The notes under the pieces: model-generated
What the model saw: the letters and a program-made list of their open reading frames with translations, nothing else
The model's database searches: none
What the model was told of the DNA's origin: nothing
DNA from: Fidelibacterota bacterium
GTDB taxonomy: Bacteria > Fidelibacterota > Marinisomatia > SCGC-AAA003-L08 > TS1B11
Reading direction: 5' to 3'
NCBI GenBank assembly: GCA_004124875.1
Contig: SCKJ01000001.1
Coordinates: 372,001 to 436,000 of the forward strand
DNA: 64,000 nucleotides
Position numbers and translations under genes: made by a program
Shown: piece by piece, positions 24,521 through 63,095 of the stretch
Position numbering within the stretch: the stretch's first letter is position 1
Layout of the letters: each line of letters opens with the position of its first letter

Positions 24521-25240
24521 TTATGGCGCGGGATCGTTAAAGGTCGACCCCCTCTCCCATTCGACAGGCTCAAGCGCTGGCAGGGCGGGAGGCGACCACT
24601 TTAACCAGGTGCCCACAAAGGCAAAATAGTTCATGATGACATCTGAGTCCCAATCCGGATTAACGCGGATGCTATCGAGACGATCCTTGCGATCAAGAGC
24701 CAGCAGCCTTTTCAGGGGCGTGAGCAGTTGATCCTGGAGACGGCGCTCCAGCGTATTGGTGCCGATTTTGGCCAGCAGCCACTCCCAATCGTATCCCGGC
24801 AGCTCTTTGAGCCAGCGGGCAACCCGGTCAGGGTCAGCTTTTGACGACTGCCAGGTATCCCCAACTGACAGCAGCAGCAGCCTGGCCGTTAGCTCCCGCC
24901 GGACGGGGAGATCATGCAGCCACAGCAGGAACAGCGGCGTCGAAAAGGGAAAATTGCCCAACCGGCGACCCAGATCGTCAACCCAGTTTGGATTGAGATT
25001 CGCCGGCGACGCCTCGCCGTGGCGACTGATGCCAGGCAAGTATCTAGGGGCGGTCAGGTGAACGCCAACAACATCATCGACACCGATGGCCGGATCGATC
25101 CAGCTGTGGACACCGTCATCCAGCCCGGCCAGGGTCCAGCCCAGGTGGTGGTGCAACAGGGCCGCGCAGAGCAGTCCTTCCAAATCAGCGGAGACGATCA
25201 TGGCCGAGTCGCGCCGGGCCAGCCAGGGATGCAGCTTCAT
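24521..25240 (-). CDS. DHH-like protein coupled to a DNA methyltransferase, function unknown
   Basis: About 239 residues from ATG 25240. The frame is open to 25309, so a start inside the methyltransferase gene cannot be excluded. The N-terminus (AMIVSADLEGLLCAALLHHH, then GLDDG) resembles the first Asp motif of DHH phosphoesterases and closely parallels the opening of the true DHH protein at 62160 (GDLDGIVSAALL). The second region (ISRHGEASPANLNPNW) has a single His rather than a DHH triad. The rest is helical, with no known domain. It follows a DNA methyltransferase stop by 22 bp, so it may be a restriction or regulatory partner. The fold assignment is tentative. Confidence 0.6.
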   Translation of the reverse strand: MKLHPWLARRDSAMIVSADLEGLLCAALLHHHLGWTLAGLDDGVHSWIDPAIGVDDVVGVHLTAPRYLPGISRHGEASPANLNPNWVDDLGRRLGNFPFSTPLFLLWLHDLPVRRELTARLLLLSVGDTWQSSKADPDRVARWLKELPGYDWEWLLAKIGTNTLERRLQDQLLTPLKRLLALDRKDRLDSIRVNPDWDSDVIMNYFAFVGTWLKWSPPALPALEPVEWERGSTFNDPAP

Positions 25241-25262
25241 CAGTTCCGCGCGATGCACCGGC

Positions 25263-26462
25263 CTAGCGGCTCCAGTCGACGCGGGCGTTATTCGTTGCCG
25301 GCCGGTCACCTTTGCACAGTACCAGGATGCGGTCGACAGTCGTCGCCTGGCCCCGTGTTTTGTTCCAGATTTTGGTCACCTTCAGATTGTCGGCGATGGG
25401 GTCGGCCACAAGATCGATGAGCTGCAGGCCAAGCTGGGGTTGGGCATGCTCCCACACTGCGGCGGCCAAGTTGATGGGTGGCCGTCCCTTTTGGGCCACA
25501 TCTCCGATGACCAAGACGCAAACGCCCCCCGGTGACAGCAGCCGTTCCATCTGCAGCAGCAGTTCGTCCATAAAGGCGAGGTAAGGAGGCAGATCATGGC
25601 CATCGTCCAGAGTTTCATCCACCTCCGTTGCGGGGACGCCTAAAAACCAGAGCCGAATCCAGTTGTACAGGCCGTACTTGACCACTTTCAGATAGGGTGG
25701 CGAGGAGACCACCAACTGCACGGAGCCGCGGTCGATTTTCCGGTGCAGCTGGCGGAAATCGAGTTGGTAGGCGCGTCCCCTGGCGACGGGCACGCTCTCG
25801 CGGAACAGGCGCTTCAGTCTGTCTCCGGTTTTCTCAAAAACGTCTAGCGGCAGGGGCTGAATCTTTTTCTCGCGCACGTAACGGCTGATGTAGCCGGGGC
25901 TCATGCTGAAGGTGTTGGGCATATCAATGCTCAGGTAGATCGAGTCGTCTCGCGACCGGCGGTATTTCCCGTGCATAATGCCGAGAATGGTCGCTTTTAA
26001 GAAAGTATCGGCGCGGCTATCGGTGAGGGCCTGCTTCAAGTAAGTGAGCTGCTTGAGCGTGTGGGGATGATATACCACGCGTATGGGATGGCCGGCAGCT
26101 TCTTCCCTGACCGCCGCCCCGCTCCAGCCGGATTCAAGCTCCTGCAGCCGCAGGGCCGCTTCCTCATAGGTGGGGGGGTCGACTTTGGCCAGCGACAGCA
26201 CATATGCCAGGGGATTTAAGTCACTTGCCAGCCCTACCCGGCCCTCCACACAGGCTTGGGTCGGCGTGGTGCCCCGGCCCGAAAAGGGGTCCAGGACCGT
26301 ATCTCCTTTATGGGTAAAGCGCTGGATAAAATAGTGCGGCAGGCGGGGCGGAAACATGGCCATATAACTGCACATGGGGTGGAACGGGTGCCCCCAACGT
26401 TTGGGATGATCCTTCCACTCCGGGACGACAGGGGGCGATATGGTAACCTTTGGCGAAAACAT
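25263..26462 (-). CDS. DNA methyltransferase (N4-cytosine/N6-adenine, SPPY type)
   Basis: 399 residues. Motif I, DPFSGRGTTPTQA at about 58-70, binds AdoMet and is preceded by FIQRFTHKGDTVL. Catalytic motif IV appears much later as VVSSPPYLKVVKYGLYNW, around residue 250. SPPY is common in N4-cytosine methyltransferases. The order motif I, long insert, motif IV corresponds to the alpha arrangement, with the insert acting as target recognition domain. The substrate strand and site cannot be read from sequence. The downstream DHH-like gene begins 22 bp later in the same operon. Confidence 0.88.
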   Translation of the reverse strand: MFSPKVTISPPVVPEWKDHPKRWGHPFHPMCSYMAMFPPRLPHYFIQRFTHKGDTVLDPFSGRGTTPTQACVEGRVGLASDLNPLAYVLSLAKVDPPTYEEAALRLQELESGWSGAAVREEAAGHPIRVVYHPHTLKQLTYLKQALTDSRADTFLKATILGIMHGKYRRSRDDSIYLSIDMPNTFSMSPGYISRYVREKKIQPLPLDVFEKTGDRLKRLFRESVPVARGRAYQLDFRQLHRKIDRGSVQLVVSSPPYLKVVKYGLYNWIRLWFLGVPATEVDETLDDGHDLPPYLAFMDELLLQMERLLSPGGVCVLVIGDVAQKGRPPINLAAAVWEHAQPQLGLQLIDLVADPIADNLKVTKIWNKTRGQATTVDRILVLCKGDRPATNNARVDWSR

Positions 26463-30088: not shown

Positions 30089-31117
30089 ATGAAAGAAGCC
30101 GCTATGCGCTACGAATTTTATAACCAAGATTGCATCCTAGGGGCCAAGGAGCACTTGGAAGATGATTCCGTCGATTTGATTATCACTGATCCGCCTTTTG
30201 CAATAGAGGGAGATAAACTCCACAAGCATTATAACAGGAAGGAAACATTTGTAATCGATGGATATGTGGAGATTGCCAGGGAAGAATATGCTGATTTCTC
30301 CAAATTATGGATAACTGAAGCAGAGCGAGTTCTTCGGCCGGGTGGAGCATTGGCTGTTGTCTCTGGATATTCAAACCTAATTGACATACTTAACGCGCTA
30401 CGGGGCACTACTCTCAAGGAGATCAATCATATAATTTGGAAATACAACTTCGGTGTCAGTACCAAGTCCAAGTTTGTTTCCTCTCATTACCATATCCTTT
30501 ATTACTTCAAGCCAGGTGGTCAACGGACATTCAACACCTTTGCTCGATTCGGTTCACGCGAGAGAAACGGTAATAACCGGTCGCTCCTGTACCAAGACCT
30601 GGAGGACGTTTGGATCATAAACCGGGAATACAAACCAGGCGAGATCAAAAATAAGAATGAGCTCCCCTCCGCATTACTGATCAAACTGATCCAATACCTA
30701 AGTAAACCGCGGGATGTTATATGTGACTTTTTCCTCGGGGGATTTTCCACGGCTAAAATCGCCAAGGGACTGGGCCGAAGTGCAATCGGATTCGAGATCA
30801 ATAAAATCAGTTTTGACCATCATTATAAAGAAGTCGAGACAATAAGAGTTAATGAAATCGCTGGTGATGTGAAAGTTGGGACTGATGACACGCCCTTAAA
30901 AGCAGGCGAACCGTGGCGTGAGGGAGAATTAAACCAACTGAAGGACCGGTATCTTGAATTGTATCAACAAGGCCGCACGAAAAAAGAATCAATTCAAACC
31001 CTTTCTAGCGAGTTTGAAAGAGGGCCTTGGGCAATTATAAAAAGGCTAAATTCAATGAAATTTAGGAATAAATCGGATATCCCACTACAGTTCTATTTTT
31101 CAGATGATGGAGCTTAG
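30089..31117 (+). CDS. DNA methyltransferase, beta-type (N6-A or N4-C)
   Basis: 342 residues, AT-rich. ATG 30089 follows AGGGGGG; ATG 30104 is an alternative that gives the more usual MRYEFYNQDC start. Motif IV, DLIITDPPFAIEGD, is N-terminal, and motif I, ICDFFLGGFSTAKIAKGLGR, is C-terminal: the beta order (PF01555 type). DPPF does not decide between adenine and cytosine N-methylation. After motif I the last 100 residues form a helical tail (ELYQQGRTKKESIQTLSSEF) that resembles a small helix-turn-helix. It lies upstream of a C5 methyltransferase, a nuclease and Vsr in the same direction. Confidence 0.9.
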   Translation: MKEAAMRYEFYNQDCILGAKEHLEDDSVDLIITDPPFAIEGDKLHKHYNRKETFVIDGYVEIAREEYADFSKLWITEAERVLRPGGALAVVSGYSNLIDILNALRGTTLKEINHIIWKYNFGVSTKSKFVSSHYHILYYFKPGGQRTFNTFARFGSRERNGNNRSLLYQDLEDVWIINREYKPGEIKNKNELPSALLIKLIQYLSKPRDVICDFFLGGFSTAKIAKGLGRSAIGFEINKISFDHHYKEVETIRVNEIAGDVKVGTDDTPLKAGEPWREGELNQLKDRYLELYQQGRTKKESIQTLSSEFERGPWAIIKRLNSMKFRNKSDIPLQFYFSDDGA

Positions 31118-31149
31118 ACAATAACAATGATACACTATCAAACAATAAC

Positions 31150-32208
31150 GTGAAATTTCGATATGGCGAGCTATTTTCTGGTCCAGGCGGATTGTCTCTA
31201 GCCGCGCTGAGATCAACGGTGAGGGGGAATGGAGAGGTGTATTCGATCTCCCATCAATGGGCAACAGACTACGACAAAGACAGTTGTGAAACATATCAGC
31301 GCAATATTATCGGGAAAGCATCTAATTCTGTTCACTGCAAGGATGTGCGAAAACTCAATATTGAAGAATTGCCGCCGATAGATGCTCTTGCATTTGGCTT
31401 TCCTTGCAATGATTTCAGTGCCATAGGGGAAAAAAAAGGGATTTATGGAGAATTTGGGCCACTGTATTCATACGGAATACGGGCGCTCAGGCATTTCAAA
31501 CCATTGTGGTTTCTTGCTGAGAATGTTTCCGGACTTAGATATGCGAATCAAGGCATGGCCTTAAAACTAATTCTAACTGAAATGGAAGAGTCCGGTTATG
31601 ATATTGTTGCTCATTTATATCGGTTCGAGCGATATGGAGTGCCTCAACGACGTCACAGGTTAATCATTGTGGGCATCAGGAGTGATCTTAAAAAAAAATT
31701 CGGCGTTCCAAAACCGCAACAAGATGTAGAGATAACTTCACGAGAAGCAATTGAAGAACCCCCGATACTCGAGAATGCTCCAAATCACGAATATACCCGT
31801 CAATCACAGCAAGTAATTGACAGACTCAAACATATCAAGCCCGGAGAGAACGCATTTAACGCCGACCTTCCGGAGCACTTACGCCTTAATGTAAAGGGAG
31901 CGACTATTAGTGTAATATACAAAAGATTACATCCAGATAGACCTTCATATACAGTTACTGGGAGTGGAGGTGGGGGTACTCATATGTACCATTGGTCCGA
32001 GAATCGCGCCTTGACAAACCGTGAGCGGGCCAGGTTGCAAACATTCCCAGATGATTATGTGTTCTACGGTTCAAAAGAAAGTGTGCGAAAACAAATAGGA
32101 ATGGCTGTGCCTGTAACTGGCGCACAAAGAATTTTTCTTGCCATTTTGATGACAATGGCTGGTATCGAATACCCATCGATTGAGCCTACTATTGGTAATG
32201 GGGCGTGA
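31150..32208 (+). CDS. DNA (cytosine-5) methyltransferase
   Basis: 352 residues from a GTG start at 31150. Motif I is ELFSGPGGLSLAAL, motif IV is GFPCNDFSAIGEKKG with the nucleophilic Cys, motif VI is FLAENVSGL and motif VIII is YGVPQRRHRLIIVGIR. Motifs IX-X at the C-terminus (RALTNRERARLQTFPDDYVF and GMAVPV) are complete. It should form m5C in the site cut by the adjacent NgoFVII-like endonuclease. Vsr downstream fits, since m5C deamination creates T:G mismatches that Vsr repairs. No strong ribosome-binding site is visible. Confidence 0.95.
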   Translation: MKFRYGELFSGPGGLSLAALRSTVRGNGEVYSISHQWATDYDKDSCETYQRNIIGKASNSVHCKDVRKLNIEELPPIDALAFGFPCNDFSAIGEKKGIYGEFGPLYSYGIRALRHFKPLWFLAENVSGLRYANQGMALKLILTEMEESGYDIVAHLYRFERYGVPQRRHRLIIVGIRSDLKKKFGVPKPQQDVEITSREAIEEPPILENAPNHEYTRQSQQVIDRLKHIKPGENAFNADLPEHLRLNVKGATISVIYKRLHPDRPSYTVTGSGGGGTHMYHWSENRALTNRERARLQTFPDDYVFYGSKESVRKQIGMAVPVTGAQRIFLAILMTMAGIEYPSIEPTIGNGA

Positions 32209-32227
32209 GAGAGGAAATAGCCAACAA

Positions 32228-33235
32228 ATGAGCGACGCCGTATTGTCAAATAATCTTCTTGAGAAAATTCTCCTTGTACCTGCTAAGGAGGGAGCTGATA
32301 CTCTGCACATAGTATCAGGTTACGCTACCGCGACGATGGCCTATCGACATTTCGAATTATTAAAAAAGAACAATCTTGCGAATGTTAGCATTAACCTGAT
32401 AGTTGGCATGTGCACTATTGATGGTATTTCTCGAAAGACGCACATGGCCTTTAAGGCGTTAACCGAAAAATACTCTCTGGGCCTTTTTAACTGTAATTAT
32501 CTAATTAAACCCCCGGCGATTCATAGCAAACTCTACGTTTGGTCAAAGGGTAAGGATGGGGCAATTGGATATATTGGTTCGGGTAACTATACGCAGATGG
32601 GATTTAGTGGGAACCAGAGAGAGGCATTTTCTTCTCATTCTCCAGCATCTTTAATGGATTATTATAGCGCAATTCTTGACCAAACCATTAGTTGCGTTGA
32701 CAATAATATTGCAGATTTTATCGAAATCAAGGAGAATGACTTCCAGCACATTTCTGAAATCGAAGAAGAGGAGGAGGGAGGTATTGATACAAGTGATGAG
32801 GAATCTGTAGCCTCTACAAAGTCACCGCATGTTCGTGTTAGTTTTCTGGATAGGTCCAATCGCTTACCGCCGCGTTCAGGCTTGAACTGGGGACAGAGAC
32901 CAGAGTATGCAAGAGAGCCAAATCAGGCATACATTCGGTTGCCCGCGGACATTTATAATTCTAGTTTCTTCCCGGTGCGTCCTATCCATTTTACTGTTTT
33001 AACGGATGATGATAAAGTACTTATATGCTCAAGGGCTCAGGATAGTTCAAAGGCGATCCATACGCCGCACAACAACAGCCTTCTAGGAGAGTACTTTAGG
33101 TATCGACTCGGTTTGCCAAATGGCGCGCTCGTTGAGCTAGATCATTTAGTCCAATACGGGAGAACCCACGTAGATTTCTATCGAATTGACGAAGAAACGT
33201 ATTATATGGATTTCTCCATCGATATCAATGGATAA
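32228..33235 (+). CDS. NgoFVII-family type II restriction endonuclease (PLD fold)
   Basis: About 335 residues from ATG 32228, with AGAGGAA upstream. The frame is open further upstream but overlaps the methyltransferase. HSKLYVWSKGKDGAIGYIG followed by SGNYTQMGF is the H-x-K...(G)S-x-N motif of phospholipase D-type nucleases. The opening (EGADTLHIVSGYATATMA) also matches PLD-type REases of the NgoFVII family, which act as dimers with a single composite active site. The middle has an acidic stretch (EIEEEEEGGIDTSDEE). The cognate modification is most likely by the C5 methyltransferase just upstream. The known NgoFVII site (GCSGC) should not be assumed here. Confidence 0.85.
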   Translation: MSDAVLSNNLLEKILLVPAKEGADTLHIVSGYATATMAYRHFELLKKNNLANVSINLIVGMCTIDGISRKTHMAFKALTEKYSLGLFNCNYLIKPPAIHSKLYVWSKGKDGAIGYIGSGNYTQMGFSGNQREAFSSHSPASLMDYYSAILDQTISCVDNNIADFIEIKENDFQHISEIEEEEEGGIDTSDEESVASTKSPHVRVSFLDRSNRLPPRSGLNWGQRPEYAREPNQAYIRLPADIYNSSFFPVRPIHFTVLTDDDKVLICSRAQDSSKAIHTPHNNSLLGEYFRYRLGLPNGALVELDHLVQYGRTHVDFYRIDEETYYMDFSIDING

Positions 33236-33629
33236 TTTGACGGTCGAACAGCGCCGGAAGAATATGAGGAATATTCGATCAAAGAATACGCAGCCTGAGC
33301 GAATCGTCTTTCAAGAACTCCGAAAGCGTGACTTATATTTTACAAAACATGTTGCAAATGTACCGGGCAAACCCGATATAGTTTTCAAAAGGAAAAAGGT
33401 TGCAATATTTATCGACTCCGATTTCTGGCACGGAAATCCATCTAGATTCCAAATGCCAAGAACTAACACTGACTATTGGGAGAAAAAGATAAGTTCAAAT
33501 AAAAAGCGCGACAGGAGGGTGACGTCCGAATTAGTTGGGCGGGGCTGGTTGGTCGTCAGGCTATGGGAATATGAGGTGCGACACAACATAGATGAGTGTA
33601 TGCGTACTATCGAAAAGGCAATTGTGTAA
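33228..33629 (+). CDS. vsr: Very short patch repair (Vsr) endonuclease
   Basis: About 133 residues from ATG 33228, overlapping the endonuclease stop by 8 bp. The signature start TVEQRRKNMRNIRSKNTQPE and the central catalytic region (VPGKPDIVFKRKKVAIFIDS, then DFWHG) match Vsr. The catalytic Asp in PDIVF and the His in DFWHG are kept. The Cys pair that surrounds FWHG in E. coli-type Vsr is replaced (DFWHGN). It nicks DNA 5' of T in T:G mismatches created by deamination of m5C, and so protects the site methylated by the C5 enzyme in this cluster. Confidence 0.92.
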   Translation: MDNLTVEQRRKNMRNIRSKNTQPERIVFQELRKRDLYFTKHVANVPGKPDIVFKRKKVAIFIDSDFWHGNPSRFQMPRTNTDYWEKKISSNKKRDRRVTSELVGRGWLVVRLWEYEVRHNIDECMRTIEKAIV

Positions 33630-62159: not shown

Positions 62160-63095
62160 GTGAAAGCAATTGTCAGAGGAGATTTGGACGGTATCGTGTC
62201 GGCCGCATTGCTCATAGCAATAAAGCAGGTCGACGAAATGGTCGTCGTGCAAATTAAAGATATCGTTGATGGCAATATCGAAATTACCGATCAGGATATC
62301 ATTTGCAACCTGCCCTACCACCCCGACTGCTACCTCTGGTTTGATCACCATACCAGCGAGGCGCGCAAAACGCCGCCGATTCCCATTAATTTTCAGGGAG
62401 CCTTTGTGCTGGCTGACAGTGCCGCCCGGGTCGTATATGACTATTTTCTTCCTTTCCATCCCAAGCTTGAAAAATATGTTAAGCTGGTAGAGGAGGTGGA
62501 CAAGTTTGACCGGGCCGATCTGACCAAAGATGATGTCCTGAACCCCCGGAGCCACGTCATGCTTGGGTTCCTTCTGGATCCACGATCCCGGATGCCCGGC
62601 GATGGTGAAAATCGTCTTCGTTTTGAGAAATGGCGCGCCAGGATTCCAGACTTGCTGATTCATGAAGGGATAGAGGATATTTTATCGCTTCAGGAGACGC
62701 AGCACTGGGTCAAGGTGTACATGGAAAATCAGGCCGCCGCTATGGAAGTTTACAGAAAAACCACCCGGCTTGAGGGCAATATCATTTACAGCGATTTCAG
62801 AGGACTGACAGTGCCCCCAGCGAACAGATTTATCATTTATTCCATGCCCGAATTTTCTGCGGGAAATATAACCGTACAAGTATCGGACGGTGAACCGGAT
62901 GTTTGGTATGAAATCTCCATCGGCCATTCCATTTTCAACAGGACTTCTATGGTTGATGTGGGCGACCTTTGCAGCTGGTATGGTGGAGGCGGGCACCGCG
63001 CCGTAGGCGTTTGCAGACCGAGTTCTGATGATGTTGAACAAGTGCTTTCGGAAGTATTGCATGCCTGCCAGGGGGGGTCGATTAGCCACGCTTGA
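62160..63095 (+). CDS. DHH-family phosphoesterase
   Basis: 311 residues from GTG 62160, with AGGAA eight bases upstream; the nearby ATG at 62153 hits a stop at once. The first motif is RGDLDGIVSAALLIA (D-x-D), the second LPYHPDCYLWFDHHTSEARK with DHH, and the C-terminal DHHA1-like end has WYGGGGHRAVGV. It should hydrolyse phosphoesters, such as short oligonucleotides, cyclic dinucleotides or polyphosphate; the exact substrate is not clear. It is monocistronic, with a strong terminator 37 bp downstream. Confidence 0.88.
   Translation: MKAIVRGDLDGIVSAALLIAIKQVDEMVVVQIKDIVDGNIEITDQDIICNLPYHPDCYLWFDHHTSEARKTPPIPINFQGAFVLADSAARVVYDYFLPFHPKLEKYVKLVEEVDKFDRADLTKDDVLNPRSHVMLGFLLDPRSRMPGDGENRLRFEKWRARIPDLLIHEGIEDILSLQETQHWVKVYMENQAAAMEVYRKTTRLEGNIIYSDFRGLTVPPANRFIIYSMPEFSAGNITVQVSDGEPDVWYEISIGHSIFNRTSMVDVGDLCSWYGGGGHRAVGVCRPSSDDVEQVLSEVLHACQGGSISHA

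Follow-up and report, generated by a model that had tools for sequence, protein, structure and literature searches.

The window, as we call the 64,000-nucleotide stretch of DNA analyzed here, lies on contig C7 of a 3.0-Mb genome and encodes a DNA methyltransferase (MTase) followed by a 239-aa protein that probably belongs to an unnamed, DHH-superfamily-like family. We refer to it as the GHH family, for the GHH found in place of DHH. At a probability of roughly one half, we interpret the 239-aa protein as a degenerate member of this family, the intact members as partners of MTases in a restriction-modification (RM)-like module, and the window pair as an orphan MTase accompanied by a dead hydrolase.

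The MTase (399 aa; 25263..26462, minus strand) matches the N6_N4_Mtase profile PF01555 with 58.6 bits against a cut-off of 26.7, and the PADLOC model MTase_II PDLC03325 with an E value of 1e-40. Motif I, DPFSGRGT (residues 58-65; 26268..26291, minus strand), precedes motif IV, SPPY (residues 254-257; 25692..25703, minus strand), which places the enzyme in the alpha order; SPPY is typical of m4C enzymes. The partner gene (24521..25240, minus strand) was assigned to the GHH family, as a degenerate, DHH-like copy, from homologues, an AlphaFold model and motif alignment. Downstream, a gene for a pabC-like class IV aminotransferase (PF01063; 23595..24467, minus strand) is, by neighborhood comparison, a conserved neighbor within the window's taxonomic order. 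An earlier note on this DNA had described an alpha-order MTase (DPFSGRG, then SPPY) with a 239-residue protein 22 bp further on, and its coordinates and motifs were verified: 22 bp separate the MTase stop from the partner ATG at 25240. The longest mechanical ORF of the partner starts with a GTG at 25309, which gives a 47-bp overlap with the MTase, and no clear ribosome-binding site chooses between the two starts. The strings reported from the partner, SADLEGLLCAALLHHHLGW, ISRHG and NLNPN, are all present in it. The same note had regarded an ORF at 62160 as a true DHH protein; the strings GDLDGIVSAALL and DHH are indeed present there, yet no Pfam match reaches E<=1e-3. With its GDLDG and DHH strings, this gene (62160-63095, plus strand) may encode another uncatalogued DHH-like protein.

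The composition of the pair (GC 0.60, GC3 0.71-0.73) is that of the surrounding chromosome. The order c6, c8, MTase, GHH gene, pabC-like gene forms a conserved, vertically inherited neighborhood around the pair; the MTase is conserved in 11/11 genomes of the window family, f1, in which the pabC-like gene lies directly 3' of the two genes. A search of 100 genomes, the window's own included, recovered partner homologues in 11/11 genomes of f1, 40/41 of the order (the exception being a genome 58% complete) and 0/59 of other orders of the class. Against its congener counterpart, the GHH gene has a dN/dS (Nei-Gojobori) of 0.34 (dS 1.3, near saturation) and the MTase one of 0.18. Because homologues are found throughout the family and nearly throughout the order, and dN/dS is 0.34, the 239-aa ORF is more than a chance reading frame. 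Elsewhere in the window, a low-GC RM island (30089-33629, plus strand) holds genes for a beta-order N6_N4 MTase, a C5 MTase, an NgoFVII-type PLD endonuclease and Vsr. Membership of this island in the MTase-GHH pair was considered and rejected on composition (GC 0.42-0.44 versus ~0.60). The first MTase of the island closely resembles the type paired with GHH genes in families f24 and f27, and a similar MTase occupies the same place in congener G001.

The 239-aa protein matched no model of Pfam, NCBIfam or PADLOC at E<=1, and no relevant PDB sequence. Searches of the family proteins against Pfam, NCBIfam, PADLOC, PHROGs and PDB sequences likewise gave nothing relevant, leaving DHH homology without sequence-level proof; Pfam yielded no PF01368 or DHHA1 profile match for the family, and the PADLOC restriction endonuclease (REase) models included none matched by the GHH partner. 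The DHHA1 signature GG(x)H is absent, the single C-terminal-half GG(x)H among 62 members being motif III of a truncated sequence. AlphaFold models of the window protein (pLDDT 78) and of a relative from an f2-f5 locus, L047 (pLDDT 89), neither an intact member, were compared with PDB chains by VIA-align. The listed best rows for both models were DHH-superfamily chains (RecJ, Cdc45, PggH, NrnA), including chains whose titles name only a complex and which we take to be Cdc45 or GAN. Weighing against the DHH reading, best Z scores over the two models were 7.3 (5.2 A, 212 residues) and 5.7, where values below 8 can reflect a common arrangement; the best Foldseek E value was 7e-3 (RecJ-Cdc45), with nothing below 1e-3; and hhalign scored the family against RecJ at 24.2 (E 0.045, not significant) and against NrnA at 15.1, with 17 control alignments at 12.1-20.9. 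A BFVD fold search gave weak RecJ-like rows only. The models' best PDB alignments, together with the invariant Asp/His order in relatives, nonetheless favor the DHH-like fold that the earlier note had proposed, and the GHH family probably has a DHH-type fold and active site; profile comparison lends this weak support.

Thirteen aligned rows, covering four further families of the phylum, f1 and a plasmid protein, share invariant D36, D38, D86, G98, H99, H100 and D166 (L116 numbering). The order at positions 36, 38, 86, 99 and 166 matches that of the P. yayanosii pApase ligands D10, D12, D59, H78 and D126, that is, Asp, Asp, Asp, the first His of DHH and Asp (PMC8268124). The same study reports that mutation of the Asp of DHH removed >80% of activity, whereas a mutant of the first His was almost as active as before (PMC8268124). 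Given these mutants, neither equating GHH with activity nor equating GGH with its loss is safe. The triad Asp is replaced even in intact GHH members. Overall, motif III reads GHH in 25/62 members, GG or GS in families f2-f5 (G-G-X in G037) and S-R-H in the window; a DHH string was found once among the 62, outside motif III.

The window copy departs from intact relatives at all four motifs. By alignment, its motif I position reads D-L-E (residues 19-21; 25178..25186, minus strand) where intact relatives have D-x-D, and its motif II position is His 61 (25058..25060, minus strand) in place of Asp. Motif III is S-R-H (residues 72-74; 25019..25027, minus strand), GHH in intact relatives and DHH in the superfamily, in agreement with the initial observation that the DHH triad is replaced. 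NLNPN (residues 81-85; 24986..25000, minus strand) preserves an N-P-N stretch conserved across the family, and at motif IV, V-G-D (residues 126-128; 24857..24865, minus strand), the Asp is one column off the conserved Asp. Three of five predicted metal ligands are lost and a fourth is changed. Six candidate catalytic positions read D-E-H-R-H-G in the window and D-E-R-P-A-A in the congener, versus D-D-D-H-H-D in 14/14 phylum carriers outside the window order, in the plasmid copy from Alkaliphilus (Clostridia) and in 4/11 f1 genomes (G002, G007, G009 in both copies, and G010); the other 7/11 are degenerate. Alignment reading places GHH and the Asp positions in second-phylum and phage copies as well.

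The first His is missing in 29/29 f2-f5 genomes, and within the phylum intact sites occur in 18/25 genomes with an adjacent MTase versus 0/29 without. Loci L058, L065, L066 and L075 in the six-position table are additional copies from genomes already represented in the counts, and L076, with a stop codon at its end, was left out of alignments A2 and A3. In a tree that omitted L066 (a near-copy) and sequences of <=190 aa or with >=15 X, f1 is sister (100/99) to the MTase-less f2-f5 clade, both lying within a larger group of MTase-bearing rows, the root being midpoint only, and four label changes are enough for all groups. Because f2-f5 form one clade, the missing MTase and the missing first His there count as a single event rather than 29. 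GGH copies may be active, judging from the pApase first-His mutant (PMC8268124), in which case the confinement of intact sites to MTase-bearing genomes may mean less.

A profile search of 245 genomes of the window's phylum, Neomarinimicrobiota/Fidelibacterota, identified 54 carriers, of which 14 (families f21, f24, f27 and f29) fall outside the window order. Outside this phylum, one more carrier came from a search of 392 relatives, and in the phylum of that carrier, the second phylum, 4/124 genomes searched have the gene; the Alkaliphilus plasmid protein is a relative at E 3e-10. Alignment A5, of 13 rows, detected identical phage copies on two IMG/VR contigs. A viral scan with the phage protein returned the same two contigs only; no relatives emerged from viral scans that used the window protein, alignment A4 (16 rows) or the plasmid protein, and annotated phage and plasmid collections held no relative of the window protein or the phage protein. 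The idea that GHH proteins replace a housekeeping DHH protein was rejected. Of 13 genomes examined, 12 encode two PF01368 proteins, similar in size to RecJ and NrnA, so the GHH protein is no stand-in for RecJ or NrnA in most of them; the exception, G121, has no PF01368 protein.

Wherever the family was found on a chromosome outside f2-f5, it stood beside a DNA MTase. This pairing with METHYLTRANSFERASES comprises 11/11 f1 genomes, 14/14 phylum carriers outside the order and 4/4 second-phylum carriers, or 29/29 chromosomal carriers, and extends to the phage contig. An association with DNA MTases elsewhere, on which the earlier proposal depended, is thus strongly supported, and the data gave neither an unrelated fold nor a family never beside MTases. 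The nearest MTase-GHH gap is <=392 bp in the 31 scored loci with a partner, among which contig ends cut two partner genes and one GHH gene, and one of two G009 copies has a truncated MTase. Partners are of three types: alpha SPPY (f1, f21), beta DPPY/F (f24, f27, f29, G512) and beta SPPY (G384, G398, G505, phage). Arrangements are also three, with the MTase first, the GHH gene first, or the two convergent. As the genomes are related, the 29 pairings are not independent of one another; with three MTase types, pairing must have arisen at least three times. In the 4.2-Mb genome G201, the sole PF01555 match is the neighbor of the GHH gene. In G505 (L174 5617-10561, plus strand), two ORFs 3' of the MTase gene together make up a split GHH gene, and a 904-aa Mrr_cat-nSTAND1 gene comes next. 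The MTase-GHH pair is present twice on contig C1 of the f1 genome G009 (L068, L070), in one case with the truncated MTase, alongside two further MTase fragments.

GHH genes are also maintained without an MTase. In f2-f5, PF01555 was beside the GHH gene in 0/29 carriers among the matches listed (to ~E 1e-4), and 13/29 carriers lack any PF01555 match among the matches listed; seven f2-f5 loci scored directly had no MTase within 1.5 kb of the GHH gene. The gene here typically lies directly before pabB (PF00425) and a pabC-like gene (PF01063), as in L047 (10001-13000). MTase-free copies in f3/f4 have dN/dS values of 0.07-0.10 (5 pairs), and this strong constraint points to an MTase-independent role in f2-f5. 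The Alkaliphilus plasmid copy of the GHH protein is intact. Its gene (L185 35189-36277, minus strand) neighbors dnaE within a replication module that also encodes an HD protein, primase and SSB, and the 436-kb record contains no PF01555 match.

These copies bear directly on the main rival to the RM-like reading, which we regard as rather unlikely: that GHH proteins are regulatory, accessory or nucleotide-processing partners of MTases, or Cdc45-like replication or repair factors, and that the pair is a housekeeping epigenetic module in which binding matters, so that catalytic loss is tolerated. In favor of such a role are strong constraint in the absence of an MTase, vertical inheritance of the pair in the window's order, Cdc45 chains among the best model matches, the position of the plasmid copy alongside genes for dnaE, primase and SSB, and an ORF that outlived the loss of its motif residues. 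However, association with unlike MTase types in changing gene order is more what one expects of an exchangeable module than of a fixed subunit, and patchy presence in the second phylum (4/124), together with presence in phage, suits mobile conflict genes.

Model matches also included chains of PggH, pApase, DhhP, GdpP and NrN, which would fit a small-nucleotide phosphodiesterase of signaling or defense (as PggH, NrnA and the SAM-AMP hydrolase NrN), while the MTase would either act upon a linked substrate or simply lie in the same defense locus. Phage DHH phosphodiesterases have been proposed, in a review, to counter nucleotide signals (PMC7824862). We consider this role improbable, however, as the loci read contain no nucleotide cyclase, CARF or CRISPR gene by the GHH gene, the constant neighbor is a DNA MTase and the DHHA1 GG(x)H signature is absent. 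Chance or inherited adjacency of unrelated neighbors on a slowly changing chromosome would account for the window pair, which sits in a conserved, vertically inherited neighborhood, but three MTase types in three arrangements across two phyla and phage cannot be one frozen neighborhood, and a PF01555 neighbor is expected for a random gene at ~0.05-1.1% per genome, which makes this explanation very improbable.

We prefer to read the pair, given its recurrence with unlike MTases, as an RM-like module that in the window has lost its hydrolase half. Computation directly supports homology, the pairing, loss of the motifs, native composition and constraint, whereas the DHH fold and active site (from models and motifs), hydrolase activity, methylation dependence and the orphan state of the MTase are inferred. 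In intact members, motifs DxD, D, GHH and D would most likely hold a divalent metal and hydrolyze a phosphodiester bond; the MTase would mark the owner's DNA, and the GHH hydrolase would act where the mark is missing. In the window lineage, the pair would have been inherited vertically as the hydrolase lost its active site, leaving an orphan MTase and a pseudo-hydrolase under relaxed but not absent selection, perhaps retained as a binding partner. Consistent with this scenario, a second-phylum GHH copy is followed by an Mrr_cat-nSTAND1 gene, and inheritance is vertical and GC native in the window. Furthermore, the GHH partner evolves faster than the MTase in 4/5 genome pairs: besides the window and its congener, dN/dS for GHH genes versus MTases was 0.17 versus 0.05 and 0.30 versus 0.17 (the latter MTase partial) in two f29 pairs, 0.105 versus 0.051 in the second phylum, and 0.26 versus 0.27 in G004/G008. 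Arguing against the RM-like reading are the long vertical inheritance, unusual for RM, the strongly constrained MTase-free f2-f5 copies, and the intact plasmid copy by dnaE with no PF01555 in its record. The suggestion that a nuclease-like partner replaces a classical restriction enzyme is accordingly plausible for relatives with intact sites and unlikely for the window copy, given D-E-H-R-H-G versus D-D-D-H-H-D; in the window, an orphan MTase inherited vertically together with a dead partner is the most likely state of the pair.

A more complete version can be offered only tentatively: an RM-like system whose effector has a DHH-superfamily fold (RecJ/Cdc45-like) bearing GHH, combined with at least three kinds of MTase across two phyla and a phage, with a dead effector and orphan MTase in the window and an MTase-free, constrained copy by pabB/pabC in sister families. 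If true, DNA modification would be tied to a nuclease or phosphodiesterase fold for which the libraries searched contain no matching restriction-enzyme model, and the intact-site relatives beside MTases hint at an undescribed self/non-self system. The open-licence PMC literature yielded no paper on a DHH protein as effector of an RM system and none on Marinimicrobia DNA MTases. Since the family forms a natural series from intact to dead sites, with and without MTases, methylation dependence of the effector is directly testable.

The GHH family resembles the DHH superfamily (RecJ, Cdc45/GAN, NrnA, PggH, pApase) in predicted fold and shares the ligand order of pApase, and by predicted fold and, in relatives, motif order it probably works like a DHH protein. 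Unlike that superfamily, it has GHH for DHH, no PF01368 or other Pfam match, no GG(x)H and MTase neighbors, and the window copy is without most metal ligands; on these grounds of triad, profile, DHHA1 motif and ligands, we do not file it as a DHH phosphoesterase. As in type II RM, the unit joins a DNA MTase to a putative hydrolase, varies in gene order, is patchy in the second phylum and is phage-borne. In contrast to type II RM, the partner matches no PADLOC REase model, inheritance in f1 is vertical and the window partner appears dead; since no known REase model is matched and cleavage is putative only, the pair is not filed there either. A further parallel is the operon of a HerA-like (DUF87) ATPase and an MTase, in that the window MTase's closest relatives beyond the pair (30-39% identity) adjoin a DNA-processing gene (L180 3992-6623; L181 424-5200; L178 1-4201, whose genes are alike by eye only). 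There, unlike in GHH pairs, the partner is a DUF87/HerA-type ATPase, NurA is annotated only in Deferribacter, and these loci contain no GHH match. The window's own genome has a second, distant alpha-type MTase beside a gene that by eye resembles DUF262 and a further small gene (L177 3108-6116, minus strand); this may be a separate defense cassette. Finally, the window MTase resembles orphan alpha-order N6/N4 MTases in being chromosomal, present throughout its family and without a working restriction partner, and differs from them in its constant, still translated partner gene and in having relatives with intact partners.
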